From contig JAFZHB010000012.1 in NCBI GenBank assembly GCA_017555105.1, forward strand, positions 52,283 to 116,282: 64,000 nt of DNA, in the 5' to 3' direction. The DNA comes from Alistipes sp. (GTDB lineage Bacteria; Bacteroidota; Bacteroidia; Bacteroidales; Rikenellaceae). Below the pieces are notes generated by a model, which was not told the DNA's origin, did no database searches, and saw only the letters and a program-made list of their open reading frames with translations. The position numbers and the translations under genes were made by a program. Of this stretch, positions 4,485 through 63,630 are shown one piece after another (position 1 is the stretch's first letter; each line of letters starts with the position of its first letter).

Positions 4485-4556
4485 GGTCCCGTAGTTCAAT
4501 GGATAGAATATAAGATTCCGGTTCTTACGATTGGAGTTCGAGTCTCCACGGGATCA
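4485..4556 (+). tRNA. tRNA-Arg (anticodon CCG)
   Basis: The cloverleaf folds fully. Acceptor GGTCCCG pairs with CGGGATC (one G-T pair). The D stem is GTTC/GAAT. Anticodon stem TAAGA/TCTTA encloses TTCCGGT, giving anticodon CCG (codon CGG). The T stem is TGGAG/CTCCA with TTCGAGT. The discriminator is A at 4556. CCA is not encoded. It has its own promoter and terminator. Confidence 0.95.
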
Positions 4557-4913: not shown

Positions 4914-5918
4914 ATGTCAATTGTACGCAATACCGAGAGCGATCTCGACTTCGAAAACAAGATCCGTCCACAGGAGTTGGAAAACTTCTCCGGCCAGGAT
5001 AAGATTGTCGAGAACCTACGCATCTTCATCAAGGCAGCCCTGATGCGTGGTGATTCGCTCGACCATGTGCTGCTGCACGGCCCTCCGGGTCTGGGTAAGA
5101 CGACTTTGGCCAACATCATCGCCAACGAGATGGGGGCACAGCTGCGCGTCACCTCGGGTCCCGTGCTCGACAAACCGGGCGACCTGGCCGGCCTGCTGAC
5201 GAACCTTGCTCCGGGCGATGTGCTCTTCATCGACGAGATTCACCGTCTGAGCCCGATCGTGGAGGAGTATCTCTACTCGGCCATGGAGGATTACAAGATC
5301 GACATCGTGCTCGACAAAGGCCCTTCGGCACGCTCGATTCAGATCGAGCTTGCCCCTTTCACGCTCATCGGTGCCACCACGCGCAGCGGTCTCTTGACCT
5401 CGCCCCTGCGTGCCCGTTTCGGCATCAACTGCCACCTCGAGTACTATGACACGCCCGTCCTGGCGGGAATCGTGAAGCGTTCGGCGCGCATCCTCGACAT
5501 CGCCATTGACGACGATGCTGCCATTGAGATCGCTCTGCGTTCGCGCGGCACACCGCGTATCGCCAACGCCCTGCTGCGTCGCGTGCGCGACTTTGCCATG
5601 GTGATGGGCGATGGACACATCGAGCTGAAGATCACGAAGCTGGCGCTTGCTGCGCTCAACATCGACGCACGCGGTCTGGATCAGATGGACAACAAGATTC
5701 TGGCGACGATCATCGAAAAGTTCAAGGGCGGCCCTGTGGGTCTGAATACGATCGCCACGGCCGTAGGCGAAGATCCCGGCACGGTGGAGGAGGTCTACGA
5801 GCCCTTCCTAATCAAGGAGGGCTTCCTCAAACGCACGCCGCGTGGTCGTGAAGCCACGGAGCTGGCCTATACCCACCTGAACTATAACCCCAAGACGAAC
5901 GAAGGGGAATTATTTTAG
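4914..5918 (+). CDS. ruvB: Holliday junction branch migration ATPase RuvB
   Basis: RuvB is the hexameric AAA+ motor that, loaded by RuvA, drives branch migration of Holliday junctions. The 334-residue sequence has Walker [10 protein letters not shown] (56-64), Walker B LFIDEIH (about 104-110), sensor-1 GATTR (153-157) followed by the RARFG arginine region, and a C-terminal winged helix. Length is normal. It is a lone plus-strand gene, separate from ruvA (23742-24326); ruvC is not in the window. Its end is followed by the AT-rich tract and the structured element of the convergent cyuA unit. Confidence 0.98.
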
Positions 5919-5952
5919 GAATTCAAAATTTAGAATTTAGAATTCAAAATTA
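5918..5952. repeat. AT-rich AATTCAAAATT-type tract
   Basis: Just after the ruvB stop, units of the type GAATTCAAAATTTAGAATT alternate in direct and inverted order. Similar tracts lie at 54884-54914, about 11080-11105 and about 63490-63520, always between genes. Confidence 0.6.
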
Positions 5953-6003
5953 TTGAGTTTGCGGATAAAATAAGGGAAGTTAAGGAGTTGCCTTAAAATA
6001 ACC

Positions 6004-6078: not shown

Positions 6079-6194
6079 AATTGTATAACAAGCGGGATTT
6101 CAAGGCTTGCGAAGCCCGAAAAAGCGCAGTTTACTAAGCGTAAATGAGCATTTTGAGGGCGAGCGTAACGCAGAAAGCCCCTTGTTAGACAATT
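6079..6194 (-). repeat. Structured intergenic element, copy A (3' of cyuA)
   Basis: A roughly 116-nt segment that begins four bases after the cyuA stop and resembles copy B at 54947-55065. Nested pairings: outer stem 6080-6092 with 6181-6194 (one mismatch); GCCC-x-AAAA (6114-6122) with TTTT-xx-GGGC (6151-6160); inner TTTAC (6130-6134) with GTAAA (6140-6144). A GCTTGCGAAGC palindrome and GCGTAACGC are shared with copy B. The stems differ in sequence between copies but still pair, which points to selection for structure. Confidence 0.75.
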
Positions 6195-6198
6195 TCTT

Positions 6199-7488
6199 CT
6201 AGCACTTGTGGGTCATAATATCCAGCACCATACGATCCGTTTCGTTCATACCGTCGCGACCGATACAGGTGAGGTTGCGAATCGACTTATCGACATCCTC
6301 CTCGATGATGCCCTCCACCGAGGTCACAGCGCGGCCCTCCATGGCCATCATGGCCGACATGAGCGCCGTCGAGACACCACTGGCTACCTTCATCGCACAG
6401 CTCGGCTTCGCACCGTCGCAGATCATACCCGTCAGGTTGGCGATCATGTTCTTCACCGCCGAAACCACCTCCGGATAACCACCGCCCATCAGGTAGGTGA
6501 TGCCGCAGCTCGAACCCGTAGCAGCCACCACACAACCACACAGCGCCGAGAGACGACCGAGCGACTGCTTGATGTAGATAACCGCCAGGTGACTCAAAGC
6601 CAGCGCGCGGATCGTCTGCTCCTCGGTAGCCCCCGTATCCTCGGCATAAACCACCACAGGCATCGTAGCCGAGATACCCTGATTACCACTACCCGAGTTA
6701 CTCATCACGGGCACCATAGCTCCCGCCATACGGGCATCACACGCAGCCGAAGTATAGGCCAGAATGTGCGAGAAGATACCGTCACCCATCATGCGCTGGT
6801 TTCGCAACGAGAGCATCGTGCGACCCACCGAGTGGCCATAACTACCCTGCATGGCAACCTCCGCCGCAGCCTTATTCAAACGCTTCGTCTCCAGGATAAA
6901 GCGCAACTCATCGATCGGAGACTCCAAGGCAAACTCCCAAACACGATGGAGCGTCAGCTCCACCTCGCCGCTCTCCGCCTCCTGCTCCGCCGACGGCGTA
7001 CTGCAATCGAGCAACACCTCGCCATCACGCTCCTCATAGACGAAGTTCGTATGGCCACCGGCGATGATCGCCGTAGCGCGGTGTCCCGCTGCTACGACCG
7101 TCACTTCGGCGTAGAGTTTCTCCTCGATGGCCTCCTTCAGACCAATCGAAATACCTTTCTCGTCGATCAGCTGGCGCCCCTGCTCCACAGCCTCCGGCGT
7201 CACATCACGCAGCACCTCCAAACCATAGGCCGACTTACCGATCAACGCACCCAGCGCAACGGCGATCGGCAGACCAATCATGCCCGTTCCGGGGATACCT
7301 ACGCCCATGGCGTTTTTCAAGATATTGGCACTGAGCAGCACCTCGATCTGCTGCGGACGCACACCCAGCAACTCCGTGGCGCGCGCTGCACAGAGGGCCA
7401 CGGCAATCGGTTCGGTACAACCGATAGCGGGGATCACCTCACGCTGAATAAGGTCGATGATTTGTTTGCGTTCGGGTTTTGTAAGCAT
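6199..7488 (-). CDS. CyuA/UPF0597-family protein (L-cysteine desulfidase-like, serine dehydratase alpha fold)
   Basis: The 429-residue protein belongs to the YhaM/CyuA family, related to the catalytic chain of Fe-S L-serine dehydratases; characterised members split L-cysteine to pyruvate, ammonia and sulfide using a [4Fe-4S] cluster. Seen here: AIGCTEPIAVAL near residue 22, the Gly/Ser-rich GSGNQGISATMPV block, and Cys-rich motifs ALCGCVVAATGSSCG and ICDGAKPSCAMK that carry the likely cluster ligands. It follows the SagB-like lipoprotein gene by 22 bp and ends in the structured element (6079-6194). Substrate (cysteine or another beta-substituted amino acid) is inferred from the family. Confidence 0.88.
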   Translation of the reverse strand: MLTKPERKQIIDLIQREVIPAIGCTEPIAVALCAARATELLGVRPQQIEVLLSANILKNAMGVGIPGTGMIGLPIAVALGALIGKSAYGLEVLRDVTPEAVEQGRQLIDEKGISIGLKEAIEEKLYAEVTVVAAGHRATAIIAGGHTNFVYEERDGEVLLDCSTPSAEQEAESGEVELTLHRVWEFALESPIDELRFILETKRLNKAAAEVAMQGSYGHSVGRTMLSLRNQRMMGDGIFSHILAYTSAACDARMAGAMVPVMSNSGSGNQGISATMPVVVYAEDTGATEEQTIRALALSHLAVIYIKQSLGRLSALCGCVVAATGSSCGITYLMGGGYPEVVSAVKNMIANLTGMICDGAKPSCAMKVASGVSTALMSAMMAMEGRAVTSVEGIIEEDVDKSIRNLTCIGRDGMNETDRMVLDIMTHKC

Positions 7489-9720: not shown

Positions 9721-11076
9721 TTATCGGATCTCCTCTCCGAGCAGCGTTGCCGAGGTGCAACCCGTCACGCGTACACGGACATAGTCGCCCGCCTTGTGAC
9801 CGTTGCAATCGAACACCACCACCTTATTCTGCGAGGTACGACCAAAGAGCTGTGCCTTGTTGCGGCGCGACTCGCCCTCAACCAGCACCTCGAACTCCTT
9901 GCCCACATCGCGCTTATAGCTCTCCAAGCCCAGCTCATTCTGCAGGGCTATGATCTCCTGCAGACGGCGCGACTTCACCTCATCAGGCACATTGTCAGCC
10001 AGGTGCTTCGATGCGAAGGTGCCCGGGCGCTCTGAGTATTTGAACATAAAGGCAAAGTCATAGCCCACCTCGCGCATGAGCGAGAGTGTATCCTGATGCT
10101 CCTCCTCCGTCTCGCTCGAGAAGCCGGCGATCAGGTCGGTCGTGATGGCGCAGTCGGGCATATAACGACGGATCGCAGCGATGCGATCGAGGTACCACTC
10201 GCGTGTATATTTACGGTTCATACGCTCGAGCATCGAGGTCGAGCCCGACTGTGCGGGCAGGTGGATCGCACGGCAGATGTTGGGCATCGAGGCCATCACC
10301 TCCAGCAAACGATCGCTCATATCCTTCGGATGCGAAGTAGCAAAGCGCACGCGCAGGAGCGGCGAGACCTCGGCCACACGACGGATCAACTCGGGGAAGT
10401 CAACCTCACCGTGGCGGTACGAATTCACATTCTGACCCAGCAGCGTCACCTCGCGATAACCATTCTCAAAGAGCTGGCGTGCCTCGGCCATGATCGTCTC
10501 GCAGTCGCGGCTGCGTTCGCGACCGCGCGTGTAAGGAACCACGCAGTAGGAGCAGAAGTTGTTGCAACCACGCATGATCGAGATAAAGCCGCTCACACCG
10601 TTCTTATCGATGCGTACGGGAGCAATCTCGGCATAGGTCTCTTCGGTCGAGAGGAGCACATTTGCCCCCTTCTGCCCCGCCTCGGCCGTTTTGAGCAGCG
10701 TCGGCAGGTCGCGATAGGTGTCGGGGCCTGCAACCAGATCCACGCCCGTATTTCCCTCGAGCAGCTGCTCCTTGAGGCGCTCGGCCATACAGCCTACAAT
10801 ACCCACCACGAGCGAAGGTTTACGCTTCTTCAGGCGACGCATCTCAGAGAGACGACCCCAGATTCGCTGCTCGGCGTTATCACGCACCGAGCAGGTGTTG
10901 ATCAGGATCACATCCGCCTCGCCGATCGTCTCGGTGTAGACATAACCGTGGTTTTGCAGGATCGAGATGATGATCTCCGTATCACCTACATTCATCTGGC
11001 AACCGTAGGTCTCAATGAAGAGCTTGCGCCCCTCACCGGTCAGCGGTCGTAATTGATTGTATGATGCAGTATTCAA
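9721..11076 (-). CDS. miaB: tRNA-2-methylthio-N6-dimethylallyladenosine synthase
   Basis: Radical-SAM methylthiotransferase that adds the 2-methylthio group to i6A37 of tRNAs reading UNN codons. The N-terminal UPF0004 domain carries the three ligands of the auxiliary [4Fe-4S] cluster: Cys26 (YGCQMN), Cys62 (NTCSVR) and Cys96 (GCMAER). The radical-SAM CX3CX2C is Cys171, Cys175 and Cys178, followed by PYTRGRERSR. A TRAM RNA-binding domain occupies about residues 385-450. The 451-residue length is normal. The short gap to yitT (39 bp) contains an AATTTTGAATTTTGAAT tract. Confidence 0.97.
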   Translation of the reverse strand: MNTASYNQLRPLTGEGRKLFIETYGCQMNVGDTEIIISILQNHGYVYTETIGEADVILINTCSVRDNAEQRIWGRLSEMRRLKKRKPSLVVGIVGCMAERLKEQLLEGNTGVDLVAGPDTYRDLPTLLKTAEAGQKGANVLLSTEETYAEIAPVRIDKNGVSGFISIMRGCNNFCSYCVVPYTRGRERSRDCETIMAEARQLFENGYREVTLLGQNVNSYRHGEVDFPELIRRVAEVSPLLRVRFATSHPKDMSDRLLEVMASMPNICRAIHLPAQSGSTSMLERMNRKYTREWYLDRIAAIRRYMPDCAITTDLIAGFSSETEEEHQDTLSLMREVGYDFAFMFKYSERPGTFASKHLADNVPDEVKSRRLQEIIALQNELGLESYKRDVGKEFEVLVEGESRRNKAQLFGRTSQNKVVVFDCNGHKAGDYVRVRVTGCTSATLLGEEIR

Positions 11077-11115
11077 TGGTTCTAATTTTGAATTTTGAAT
11101 GCTAAATTGTGCAGA

Positions 11116-18632: not shown

Positions 18633-18705
18633 GCCTCTTTAGCTCAGTTGGTAGAGCACGACACTCTTAATGTTGGGGTCCAGGGTTCGAGCCCCTGAGG
18701 GGGTA
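18633..18705 (+). tRNA. tRNA-Lys (anticodon CTT)
   Basis: Acceptor GCCTCTT/AGGGGGT (with G-T pairs), D stem GCTC/GAGC, anticodon stem CGACA/TGTTG enclosing CTCTTAA (anticodon CTT, codon AAG), T stem CAGGG/CCCTG with TTCGAGC, discriminator A at 18705. CCA is not encoded. Confidence 0.95.
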
Positions 18706-54870: not shown

Positions 54871-54883
54871 TGGTATTTCAAAT

Positions 54884-54914
54884 GCAAAATTTAGAATTCA
54901 AAATTCGAAATGAA
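54884..54914. repeat. AT-rich AATTCAAAATT-type tract
   Basis: Contains AAAATTTAGAATTCAAAATTCG, like the tract at 5918-5952, and again lies between a structured element and the next gene. Confidence 0.6.
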
Positions 54915-54946
54915 GGCTTTGCAACAAAAAAGCAATTCACTTCCTG

Positions 54947-55065
54947 AAAATTCGTATGATGCGGGAAGTGCAAGGCTTGCGAAGCGGGAAAATGCGGAGC
55001 ATACAAGCGTATGTGAGCAGTTTTCCCGCAAGCGTAACGCAGCAATTCCCCATCAGACGGATTTT
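54947..55065 (-). repeat. Structured intergenic element, copy B (3' of recQ)
   Basis: Starts at the recQ stop codon. Outer stem: AAAATTCGTATGATG (54947-54961) with CATCAGACGGATTTT (55051-55065), one G-T pair and one mismatch. Middle stem: GCGGGAAAA (54984-54992) with TTTTCCCGC (55021-55029). Inner stem: CATAC (55000-55004) with GTATG (55009-55013), loop AAGC. The GCTTGCGAAGC and GCGTAACGC segments match copy A at 6079-6194. Stem bases differ from copy A in a pairing-preserving way. Confidence 0.75.
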
Positions 55066-57256
55066 AGTTACCCTGTTCGCAGATAAACTTGATACGAATC
55101 AGGCGAATCTCCTCCTCGGTGTAGTCCGAGCCGAGCTCCTCGACAGCAGCATCGAGCGAATCACTCTCGGCGTCCTCCTTGAAGTAGAGGTAGATATCTT
55201 CAGCCTTCTCCTCATCCATCACCGTATCGATGTAGTAGGAGAGGTCGAGTCGCGTACCCGAGTTGACGATGGCCTCAATCTCCGTCAGTAGCTCATCCGA
55301 ATCGAGGTTCTTGGCACGAGCGATATCCTCGAGATCCATCTTGCGGTCGATGGCCTGGATGATGAAGATCTTGTTGCCGGACTTCGCGCCGACGCTCTTC
55401 ACCACCATATCCTGTGGACGGATGATCTCCTTCTCCTCGACATAAGCCTTGATCAGTTTGATGAACTCGGCACCAAACTTACGCGCCTTACCGACACCGA
55501 CACCCGTAATGTTCTGCATCTCCTCGATCGTGATCGGATACTGCACCGACATATCCTCCAACGAGGGATCCTGGAAGATGACAAAGGGAGGCAGACCCTG
55601 CTGCTTAGCCACCTTCTTACGCAGGTCCTTGAGCATAGCAAAGAGCTCCTCGTCGGCCGCTCCGCCACGGTTCATGGCGCCCGGCTGCTCGGAGGGGGCC
55701 TCCACCTCGTCGTAGTTATGGTCGAGTGCAATCAACACCGCGTGCGGCTTCTTAATAAAGAGTTCACCACGCTTGTTGAGCGAGATCAGACCATAGTTCT
55801 CGATATTCTTATCAATCAGGCCGAGGATCTGCGCCTGGCGCATCACCGCACCCCAGAAGCGTGCATCATGCTCCTCACCTGCCCCAAACCACTTGAGTTC
55901 GTGGTGGTCATAGCTCTTCACCATGGCATTCGAGCGACCCACCAAGACATTGATCAGGTGATCCACCTTGAACTTATCGCCCAGCTCACCCAAAGCCTCC
56001 AAGGCCATCTTAAGCTGCGCTTTGACATCCACCTTCGGTTTGGGATTCAAGCAGTTGTCGCAGTTTCCACAGTTCATCTCGGTATACTCCTCACCAAAGT
56101 AGTGCAGCAGCGACTTGCGACGGCACATCGAGCTCTCGGCATAGGAAACCGTCTCGAGCAGAAGCAGTTTACCGATCTCCTGTTCGGCAATCGGCTTACC
56201 GTGCATAAACTTCTCGAGCTTCTGGATATCCTTATAACTATAGAAGGTCAGGCAGTGCCCCTCGCCACCATCGCGGCCGGCACGACCCGTCTCCTGGTAG
56301 TAGCCCTCGAGCGACTTCGGGATGTCGTAGTGGATCACATAGCGCACATCGGGCTTATCGATACCCATACCAAAGGCGATCGTGGCCACAATCACATCGA
56401 CCTGCTCCATCAGGAAGTCGTCCTGGTTAGCGGCACGCGTGGCTGCATCCATACCGGCGTGGTAGGCGCGTGCCTTGATGCCGTTGGCCAGCAGCAGTTC
56501 GGTGAGTTCCTCCACCTTCTTGCGGCTCAAGCAGTAGATAATACCGCTCTTGCCCTCGTTCTGCTTGATGTAGAGGATAATATCGTGATCGACATTGTGC
56601 TTCGGACGGATCTCGTAGTAGAGGTTCGAGCGGTTGAACGACGAGCGGAAGACCGCAGCATCGTTCATACCGAGGTTCTTCTGGATATCCATCTGCACCT
56701 TCGGCGTAGCCGTCGCCGTAAGGGCGATCAGCGGTGCCGAACCAATCTCATTGATAATCGGGCGAATACGGCGATACTCCGGACGGAAGTCGTGACCCCA
56801 CTCCGAGATACAGTGTGCCTCGTCGATGGCGTAGAACGACACCTTGATCTTACGCAGGAAGGCGACATTATCCTCCTTGGTGAGCGACTCGGGAGCGAAG
56901 TAGAGCAGCTTGGTTTTGCCGTCGAGAACATCCTGACGCACCTGCTGCACGGCCGTCTTATTGAGCGACGAATTGAGGAAGTGCGCAATCCCCGGATTAT
57001 CCGAGAAGGTGCGCATCGAATCGACCTGATTCTTCATCAGGGCGATCAGGGGCGAAATGACGATCGCCACGCCCTCCATAAGCAGGGCCGGCATCTGGTA
57101 GCAGAGCGATTTACCGCCTCCGGTCGGCATCAAGACAAAGGTATCGTTGCCTTCAAGCACATTGCGAATTACAGCCTCCTGGTTACCCTTGAAGGCCGAA
57201 AAACCGAAGTACTCCTTCAGTTTCGCATGCAAAAGTGCCGAATCATACTGTTTCAT
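55064..57256 (-). CDS. recQ: ATP-dependent DNA helicase RecQ
   Basis: 3'-5' helicase for repair and recombination. 730 residues: Walker A TGGGKSLCYQMP (about 45-56), IDEAHCISEWGHDFRPEYRRI (motif II and RecQ loop), QETGRAGRDG (motif VI), zinc site Cys in MCRRKSLLHYFG and CGNCDNCLNP, a winged-helix RQC domain, and an HRDC domain (about 530-610). It has an additional C-terminal helix-rich segment (about 635-730) common in Bacteroidota RecQ. It is divergent from lptB. Confidence 0.97.
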   Translation of the reverse strand: MKQYDSALLHAKLKEYFGFSAFKGNQEAVIRNVLEGNDTFVLMPTGGGKSLCYQMPALLMEGVAIVISPLIALMKNQVDSMRTFSDNPGIAHFLNSSLNKTAVQQVRQDVLDGKTKLLYFAPESLTKEDNVAFLRKIKVSFYAIDEAHCISEWGHDFRPEYRRIRPIINEIGSAPLIALTATATPKVQMDIQKNLGMNDAAVFRSSFNRSNLYYEIRPKHNVDHDIILYIKQNEGKSGIIYCLSRKKVEELTELLLANGIKARAYHAGMDAATRAANQDDFLMEQVDVIVATIAFGMGIDKPDVRYVIHYDIPKSLEGYYQETGRAGRDGGEGHCLTFYSYKDIQKLEKFMHGKPIAEQEIGKLLLLETVSYAESSMCRRKSLLHYFGEEYTEMNCGNCDNCLNPKPKVDVKAQLKMALEALGELGDKFKVDHLINVLVGRSNAMVKSYDHHELKWFGAGEEHDARFWGAVMRQAQILGLIDKNIENYGLISLNKRGELFIKKPHAVLIALDHNYDEVEAPSEQPGAMNRGGAADEELFAMLKDLRKKVAKQQGLPPFVIFQDPSLEDMSVQYPITIEEMQNITGVGVGKARKFGAEFIKLIKAYVEEKEIIRPQDMVVKSVGAKSGNKIFIIQAIDRKMDLEDIARAKNLDSDELLTEIEAIVNSGTRLDLSYYIDTVMDEEKAEDIYLYFKEDAESDSLDAAVEELGSDYTEEEIRLIRIKFICEQGN

Positions 57257-59410: not shown

Positions 59411-60391
59411 ATGAACACTTTTGGGAATGCATTGCGCCTCTCGATCTGGGGCGAATCTCACGGAGCCGCTGTCGGCATCACGCTCGATGGCGTGCCCGCC
59501 GGCATTGCTCTCTCGGAGGAGGATTTCGAGCACGACCTGGCTCGCCGCCGCAGTGGTGCACAGGGGACAACCCCGCGTCGCGAGAGCGACCGCCCGCAGC
59601 TCCTTTCGGGCATCTACGAGGGGGTGACAACGGGAGCTCCGCTCACGATCCTCTTTCAGAACGAGGATACCCGTTCGCGCGACTACACAGTGCTGACCCA
59701 TCACTTCCGTCCTTCGCACGCCGACCGAGTGGCGCAGGTGAAGTTCGACGGCAAAAACGACCCGCGCGGTGGCGGACACTTCTCGGCTCGCCTGACCGTC
59801 GCATTGGTCGCAGCGGGCGTCGTAGCCAAGAAGATGCTTCCCGCCGAGGTGCAGTTCTCGACCCGCCTGACCGCTGTTGGCGGCGAGCGTGACGCAGAAC
59901 GCTTCGAGCAGGTGATCGCTGCCGCCCAGGCCGAGGGGGACTCGGTAGGCGGCGTGATCGAGTGCCGCGTCGAGGGACTTCCGACCGGTTGGGGAGAGCC
60001 CTTCTTTGACAGTGCCGAGAGCCTCATTGCCCATCTGCTTTTTGCCATTCCCGCCATCAAAGGGGTGGAGTTTGGTGACGGCTTTGCCGTAGCCGCTCGC
60101 CGCGGTTCGGAGAACAACGATCCGATCCTCGACAGCCACGGCACAACCGCCAGCAACCACGCCGGAGGTATTGACGGCGGCATCACCAACGGCAACCCGC
60201 TCATCGTGCGCGCTGCCATGAAACCCACGCCCAGCATCGCCCGCGAGCAGCTGACCTACGACGCAGAGTGCGACTGCGTAGCCCCTTTGCAGATCAAGGG
60301 CCGCCACGACGCCTGCGTAGCCCTGCGCGGTGCGGTGGTAGTCGAAGCAGCCGTAGCTTTGGCGCTCGCTGATCTCTCACGCCGCGCCTAA
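59411..60391 (+). CDS. aroC: Chorismate synthase
   Basis: Start at ATG 59411 (MNTFGNALRLSIWGESHG, 326 residues); the open frame upstream is inside aroA. Converts EPSP to chorismate with reduced FMN. Signature GESHG, RPSHAD, PRGGGHFSARLT (Bacteroidota variant of the usual GGGRSSAR) and NHAGGIDGGITNGNP. It is some 25-30 residues shorter than the typical 350-360, mainly at its C-terminus. Confidence 0.95.
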   Translation: MNTFGNALRLSIWGESHGAAVGITLDGVPAGIALSEEDFEHDLARRRSGAQGTTPRRESDRPQLLSGIYEGVTTGAPLTILFQNEDTRSRDYTVLTHHFRPSHADRVAQVKFDGKNDPRGGGHFSARLTVALVAAGVVAKKMLPAEVQFSTRLTAVGGERDAERFEQVIAAAQAEGDSVGGVIECRVEGLPTGWGEPFFDSAESLIAHLLFAIPAIKGVEFGDGFAVAARRGSENNDPILDSHGTTASNHAGGIDGGITNGNPLIVRAAMKPTPSIAREQLTYDAECDCVAPLQIKGRHDACVALRGAVVVEAAVALALADLSRRA

Positions 60392-63556: not shown

Positions 63557-63630
63557 GGTCGCGTAGCTCAGTTGGATAGAGCAGCAGCCTTCTAAGCTGC
63601 CGGTCGAGCGTTCGAGCCGCTCCGCGATCA
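63557..63630 (+). tRNA. tRNA-Arg (anticodon TCT)
   Basis: Acceptor GGTCGCG/CGCGATC, D stem GCTC/GAGC, anticodon stem GCAGC/GCTGC enclosing CTTCTAA (anticodon TCT, codon AGA), T stem GAGCG/CGCTC with TTCGAGC, discriminator A at 63630. The next three bases are CCA, so the 3' end may be encoded here, unlike the other two tRNAs. Confidence 0.95.

Follow-up and report, generated by a model that had tools for sequence, protein, structure and literature searches.

A palindromic element present in two copies within the 64,000-nucleotide stretch of an Alistipes sp. contig analysed here (hereafter the window) is, with a probability that we put at roughly 75%, a non-autonomous MITE-like mobile palindrome of an ERIC superfamily that spans proteobacteria to Bacteroidota and favours gene ends. 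The element is repetitive across the genus, its base pairing is under constraint, it occupies gene ends in a preferred orientation in gut Bacteroidales, it is present at some sites and absent from their counterparts in related genomes, and it carries an ERIC-like core found across phyla.

Two copies of the element lie at stop codons in the window

An earlier note on this DNA described two copies on the minus strand, close to stop codons, and both their positions and this proximity were borne out (Table 1). The gene preceding copy 1 belongs to the serine-dehydratase-alpha family (Pfam PF03313), which is consistent with cyuA, and gave no NCBIfam match, while the recQ assignment is supported by a TIGR01389 match over the cut-off. 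The outer stem of copy 2 includes the final two nucleotides of the recQ stop codon, TAA. Two of the blocks described as shared by the copies, GCTTCGCAAGCCTTG and CTGCGTTACGCTYGC, have zero-mismatch matches in the window only at the two copies, with one additional single-mismatch match to CTGCGTTACGCTYGC at 59883-59897. The differences described between their stems, including inner stems of TTTAC/GTAAA versus CATAC/GTATG, are likewise present in the sequence, as are those of the middle and outer stems.

Table 1. Features of the two element copies in the window
Feature	Position	Strand	Evidence or remark
Copy 1 of the element (paired region)	6079..6194	-	3' of cyuA-like gene; top window match of R2 (133.1 bits) and R3 (65.5 bits)
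Copy 2 of the element	54947..55065	-	3' of recQ, outer stem overlaps stop codon; second match of R2 (114.9 bits) and R3 (56.1 bits)
TAG stop, cyuA-like gene (Pfam SDH_alpha)	6199..6201	-	4 nt before copy 1
TAA stop, recQ	55064..55066	-	overlapped by copy 2
Left core motif CTGCGTTACGCTCGC, conserved, copy 1	6159..6173	-	motif search and alignment
Right core motif GCTTCGCAAGCCTTG, conserved, copy 1	6101..6115	-	motif search and alignment
Apical hairpin TTTAC/GTAAA, copy 1	6130..6144	-	sequence; covarying pairs
Left core motif, conserved, copy 2	55028..55042	-	motif search
Right core motif, conserved, copy 2	54971..54985	-	motif search
Apical hairpin CATAC/GTATG, copy 2	55000..55013	-	sequence; covarying pairs

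On either strand, the predicted fold of each copy is better than those of 200/200 dinucleotide shuffles (z -4.1 to -7.4), and the plus (antisense) strand folds more stably than the minus strand (-47.3 versus -37.2 kcal/mol for copy 1 and -58.6 versus -47.2 kcal/mol for copy 2). A scan for terminator-like structures at the two window sites identified no terminator on the minus strand. The A/T tract AATTCAAAATT occurs at window positions 5918-5972, 11068-11101 and 54872-54926. Although this tract does lie near both copies, as the earlier note had pointed out, it is not specific to them: it is also found without the element, at 11068-11101 and 3' of recQ in genome G024, and was therefore rejected as part of the element and regarded as a separate repeat. 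The window also contains three tRNA genes (4485-4556, 18633-18705 and 63557-63630), and three tRNAs were all that a search of the window against Rfam 15 returned at the gathering thresholds; six element loci gave no Rfam match at E values up to 1.

The element belongs to a repeat family in Bacteroidota

Three models were used for homology searches: R1, built from the two window copies alone; R2, trained on Bacteroidota sequences only; and R3, for which 21 copies from other classes and from proteobacteria were used, and no Bacteroidia sequences. The covariance model from both copies that the earlier note had proposed (R1) recovered further members, with four full copies and a fragment truncated at a contig edge in the genome of origin, and copies in 45/61 sampled genomes of the genus. 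Carrier genomes of the genus hold a median of 27 copies and up to 56, these counts being minimum values wherever scoring was limited to 57 candidates. R2 matched both copies in the window, where the next match scored 11.7 bits, and R3 ranked the same two first (E 4e-15 and 2e-12; next match 11.8 bits), with the proviso that the members of R3 were first found by R2 or by BLAST with related copies, such that the two models are not wholly independent.

The conserved region of the element spans approximately 115-125 bp. Its core pattern was found in at least 119 stretches of a named-genome collection, and among the matches listed, most were from Alistipes sp., Rikenellaceae and Bacteroidaceae MAGs, many of them from ruminant guts. 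Tidjanibacter, Paludibacteraceae, Zodletone Bacteroidales, a Saprospiraceae MAG and two strains of Anaerophaga thermohalophila (Marinilabiliaceae) were also among the matches listed. At E values up to 10, the Anaerophaga strains gave 93 and at least 150 matches (150 candidates were scored), a Zodletone MAG 27 and the Saprospiraceae MAG one. Across a sample of the phylum in which eight candidates were scored per genome, so that a genome without a match may still carry the element, 47/395 genomes from 7/171 genera matched, and 40 of the 47 belong to a single family of another class (f19). An exact pattern search of viral contigs gave 0 matches.

Some loci depart from a simple single copy. Tandem copies were observed at L025, L140 and L163 and 3' of recQ in genome G039, some with identical locus-specific stems, and local duplication therefore also occurs. 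At L254 (positions 1978-2186), the apical part of the copy is interrupted by approximately 80 extra bases. The right flank of one Anaerophaga copy (L290) contains a sequence of about 130 bp that is repetitive in its own right and occurs dozens of times in the genomes of both strains (G455 and G456).

Stems covary and the antisense strand folds better

To the covariation alignment, A4, we admitted 54 diverse copies chosen from those aligned earlier (68 of 193 sequences). Of its cells, 92.6% are paired, and 29/36 pairs are somewhere changed on both sides. The compensatory changes described from two copies are thus also real in the larger set: 433 double-change cells were counted versus 133 in shuffled alignments (0/500 shuffles reach 433) and 74-110 when partners were slid. 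The core motifs are kept while the stems vary, with the outer stem reading GTCTGAT, GAATAAA or GTGTCTGTCC in different copies. This core, CTGCGTT .. SCTCA-YNTAC-N(3-6)-GTANR-CTSCGS .. GCCTTG, can also be seen in copies from other classes and from proteobacteria.

In 67/68 copies, RNA and DNA parameters alike give the antisense strand the greater stability. Within variable pairs, antisense G-U pairs number 56 versus 30 A-C pairs (equivalent to G-U on the sense strand), with a p value of 0.007 that is indicative only because the sequences are related; over all pairs the counts are 156 versus 30, and two positions supply 98 of the 156. This asymmetry suggests that constraint acts on the antisense single strand, and that a single-stranded DNA hairpin is involved, either in place of a 3'-UTR RNA or in addition to it.

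Copies follow stop codons in gut Bacteroidales

Placement was assessed for 149 of 189 distinct copies, namely those flanked on each side by 400 nt or more, with six Anaerophaga, Zodletone and Saprospiraceae loci set apart. We scored a copy as linked to a stop codon when a same-strand frame of at least 100 codons ended anywhere from 8 nt within the copy to 40 nt ahead of its 5' end. In this gut Bacteroidales branch, 115/149 copies have such a stop at the 5' end, whereas the mirror control, an opposite-strand stop at the 3' end, was found for 19/149. Distances from stop to copy cluster at -7 to +7 and at 13 to 39. The link is weak in Anaerophaga and Zodletone (4/23, from 23 of 29 loci) and in f19 (5/19, from 19 of 29 loci, leaving out f25 and short-flanked loci), and the gene-end rule is therefore limited to the gut Bacteroidales branch. 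At L260 and L261, from two f19 genomes, the element appears by eye to follow directly upon the 3' end of an apparent tRNA gene.

Occupied and empty sites indicate insertion

The Valhall and DSM 12881 strains of A. thermohalophila share a 5.4-kb stretch at 97.5% identity. One Valhall copy, L300, corresponds to a contiguous empty site in DSM 12881 and is the one clean case among 13 copies whose flanks were queried; the empty site reads GTGATAATGGTGG, and the filled site GGTAATTA followed by 163 bp and TAATTAGTGG. L292 and L307, read out together with L300, are occupied in both strains, as judged from flank spacing and R2 matches. The Anaerophaga unit consists of the hairpin followed by a short hairpin, and its right end is a repeat of its left end.

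A similar comparison was made between five copies of genome G027 and their counterparts in G024 (flanks 69-97% identical), three of which lack the element in G024. At L023 both flanks are collinear, at L078 the downstream side was matched by eye only, and at L076 the downstream sequence differs, such that this is not a clean empty site. L359 carries the element in both genomes, while at L077 the same stop codon is occupied in both by different subfamilies. Collectively, presence and absence at orthologous sites indicate insertion. Two close genomes thus have different subfamilies at an orthologous site, and some of the divergence between copies therefore stems from re-occupation of sites rather than from point-by-point compensation in place.

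At L023 and L078, the site without the element contains an ordinary terminator, and the filled site contains the element plus another terminator-like hairpin. The second hairpin recurs, by eye, in 14/18 copies of genome G030 and in 7/8 copies of genome G001 with enough flank, and 30 terminator-like hairpins lie just 3' of copies in the genus loci. This suggests that the unit supplies a terminator of its own, which takes the place of the previous one. Terminator hairpins with a TGTCY stem were considered as a constant part of the element, for which the evidence is weak: they are moderately enriched, at 17/30 beside the element versus 28/87 elsewhere in the genus loci.

Persistence at the two window sites was followed in relatives, where 58 and 59 genomes matched for recQ and cyuA, respectively, and 30 loci of each were inspected by eye. 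The recQ site of copy 2 is also occupied in several related genomes, with the element or a decayed form 3' of recQ in 7/30, and the same holds 3' of cyuA in 2/30, with two further half-remnants. The two genes therefore do not need the element. Five well-kept recQ copies have common flanks and loops and largely different, self-complementary stems, for which re-occupation or conversion by other copies accounts equally well as compensatory change.

The element resembles ERIC

ERIC has long been in use for typing bacteria, and to our knowledge the question of what moves it is still open. In Yersinia, ERIC reportedly has a preferred orientation next to stop codons. Like the element, ERIC (also IRU or RU-1; 127 bp; Enterobacteriaceae and Vibrionaceae) is an intergenic imperfect palindrome of about 120 bp. 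It has the same order of motifs (GCTGCGTT .. TCA-NNTAC-N4-GTANN-CTCC .. GCCTTC) and a bottom strand that is the more stable, as found in 6/6 ERIC records. It differs in its outer arms and middle stem; the element, unlike ERIC, is found in Bacteroidota and is followed by a terminator-like hairpin in the most recent Alistipes-type copies.

We searched eight E. coli records representing four ERIC loci. R2 ranked ERIC first in every stretch, at 14.5-28.1 bits versus at most 11.3 bits for other matches: psuT-yeiL scored 23.4-24.2 bits, ybhI-ybhJ 22.3 and 14.5, pgk-fbaA 19.5 and a plasmid copy near btsT 28.1. In two 40-kb stretches, both from the psuT-yeiL region, ERIC had E values of 1.4e-4 and 2.6e-4 (next match 11.3 bits), and the weakest record (14.5 bits) had an E value of 0.016 in 6.3 kb. 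R3 also placed ERIC first, but weakly (E 0.01-0.03). The copy between pgk and fbaA is oriented against its flanking genes, and therefore there is no single-orientation rule for ERIC in general. Further relatives were found in Comamonas, Pseudomonas veronii, Halomonas, Aeromonas, Yersinia frederiksenii and E. coli. The E. coli repeat between qseE and qseG (L352) scored 38.6 bits with R2 (E 7e-10 in 21 kb). Repeats of this type, perhaps those called RSA, occupy 1-8 places per genome (median 5) and differ from the element in having other flanking arms, with the CTGCGTT/GCCTTG arms absent from the copy read.

The element thus has the features of an extragenic imperfect palindrome close to 127 bp, with the core sequence and structure of ERIC at modest scores. 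An orientation preference at stop codons, as reported for ERIC in Yersinia, is present in the gut Bacteroidales branch and weak in Anaerophaga, Zodletone and f19. The available excerpt of PMC10969869 gives the host range of ERIC as Enterobacteriaceae and Vibrionaceae; the element is present in Bacteroidota, outside this range, and we therefore assign it to an ERIC-like superfamily and not to ERIC. In the excerpts available of PMC2229807, PMC2759123, PMC2267715, PMC2864571 and PMC10969869, ERIC is described from gamma-proteobacteria only, and among the papers listed for REP, MITE, ERIC, YPAL and structured RNA, none has a title or abstract opening on ERIC-like elements in Bacteroidota.

YPAL (RU-2; 167-168 bp), described from Yersinia in 2006, is reported to insert directly after stop codons, in many cases at terminators, and to form a robust hairpin. 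In these respects it resembles the element; unlike the element, the RU-2 sequence printed in the part of PMC2759123 available to us is without the core motifs when compared by eye.

Candidate mobilisers and TA ends

Of three candidate mobiliser families sought in the 61 genus genomes (Y1_Tnp, DDE_3 and reverse transcriptase), none could be tied to the element. Y1_Tnp (PF01797) was found in 0/61, many of them incomplete drafts, versus 5/14 control genomes. The IS630-type DDE_3 transposase that would drive a RUP-type MITE was found over the cut-off in 0/61 genomes and below it in 2/61. Reverse transcriptase was present in 13/45 carriers versus 7/16 non-carriers, which is no association. RAYT/Y1, IS630 and reverse transcriptase were accordingly rejected as mobilisers, being either not found or not associated. 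At the ends of the element, TA occurs at equal offsets on the two sides in 11/80 anchored copies, 8 of the 11 at one offset, and Anaerophaga copies have TAATTA-type sequence on their flanks. ERIC has a TA dinucleotide duplicated at its ends, according to the excerpt available of PMC2229807.

Weighing the alternatives

The earlier note had left two options, a 3'-UTR RNA structure or a REP/MITE-like mobile palindrome. The many covarying copies, the gene-end bias and the presence/absence differences uphold the mobile palindrome, while a strict REP does not hold. Were the element instead a cis-acting structured RNA acting on mRNA stability or termination, selected at each gene with mobility incidental, one would expect its same-strand position after stop codons (115/149 copies), its strong stem covariation and the 30 terminator-like hairpins just 3' of copies. 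Changed mRNA levels have also been reported for ERIC at Yersinia 3' ends in the excerpts available of PMC2229807 and PMC10969869. We nevertheless consider this explanation unlikely, given that the better fold and the wobble excess both fall on the antisense strand, that few genomes keep the element at recQ or cyuA, that the subfamily switched at one site (L077) and that Rfam gave no match. The element may or may not act as a 3'-UTR RNA, and the difference between the strands speaks more for a folded antisense strand. Quasi-palindrome template switching during replication could likewise yield paired changes without selection on the fold. Few one-sided wobble states (86/1565 cells in variable pairs) and two-sided switches without intermediates at two apical pairs (UA to CG and UA to AU) agree with such a process, which may contribute to the paired changes; as their sole source we judge it improbable, as the conserved core motifs and the two G-U positions are unexplained by mutation bias alone.

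REP/BIME sequences are extragenic palindromes often close to stop codons, and in these respects, as in its occasional tandem arrangement (L025, L140, L163), the element resembles a repeat spread by the Y1 transposase RAYT. However, a REP unit is much shorter, at 20-40 bp in the available part of PMC3733652, than the approximately 115-125 bp of the element, and the RAYT-associated transposase that the earlier note had suggested looking for is the Y1 family found in none of the 61 genus genomes, many of them incomplete drafts; we give this origin very little credence. A scarcely better case can be made for attC-like sites of an integron-type integrase, which acts on a folded bottom strand directly after an ORF. 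The bottom-strand hairpin bias and the position after stop codons fit, and the GTCTAAC/GTTATAC ends of one subfamily resemble R boxes, for which the consensus is RYYYAAC/GTTRRRY. By eye, however, such boxes occur in that one subfamily only, and with a mismatch, the outer stem is not conserved, and the two window copies neighbour housekeeping genes and are separated by 49 kb, without forming an array.

A model for a mobile palindrome at gene ends

Under the preferred reading of a non-autonomous mobile palindrome, a transposase supplied in trans would recognise the folded single strand, the antisense strand forming the better hairpin. Insertion would take place at the 3' end of a transcription unit, within the stop codon or terminator or adjacent to it, and the element would displace the existing terminator. 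The inserted copy would be co-transcribed as a 3'-UTR hairpin and, by analogy with ERIC in Yersinia, may alter mRNA stability; the excerpts of PMC2229807 and PMC10969869 describe altered mRNA levels for ERIC at 3' ends, an effect that depends on orientation in that of PMC2229807. More tentatively, and as a possibility that we would not yet favour, ERIC could be one branch of an ancient cross-phylum hairpin family represented in proteobacteria, in Bacteroidota and in one or more further classes of that phylum, in which the conserved part would be a single-stranded DNA hairpin of the template strand that is recognised by one mobilising protein and placed where transcription units end; there it would re-occupy the same stop codons and replace the gene's terminator with its own.

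The element is an ERIC-related and probably mobile repeat at the gene ends of a gut bacterium. The cross-phylum alignment, with its strong covariation, reveals which bases and which strand matter, and the genomes with many near-identical copies (G030, G001 and Anaerophaga Valhall) are places in which to seek the missing mobiliser. In many gut Bacteroidales, gene 3' ends thus carry a probably mobile hairpin that is absent from Rfam.
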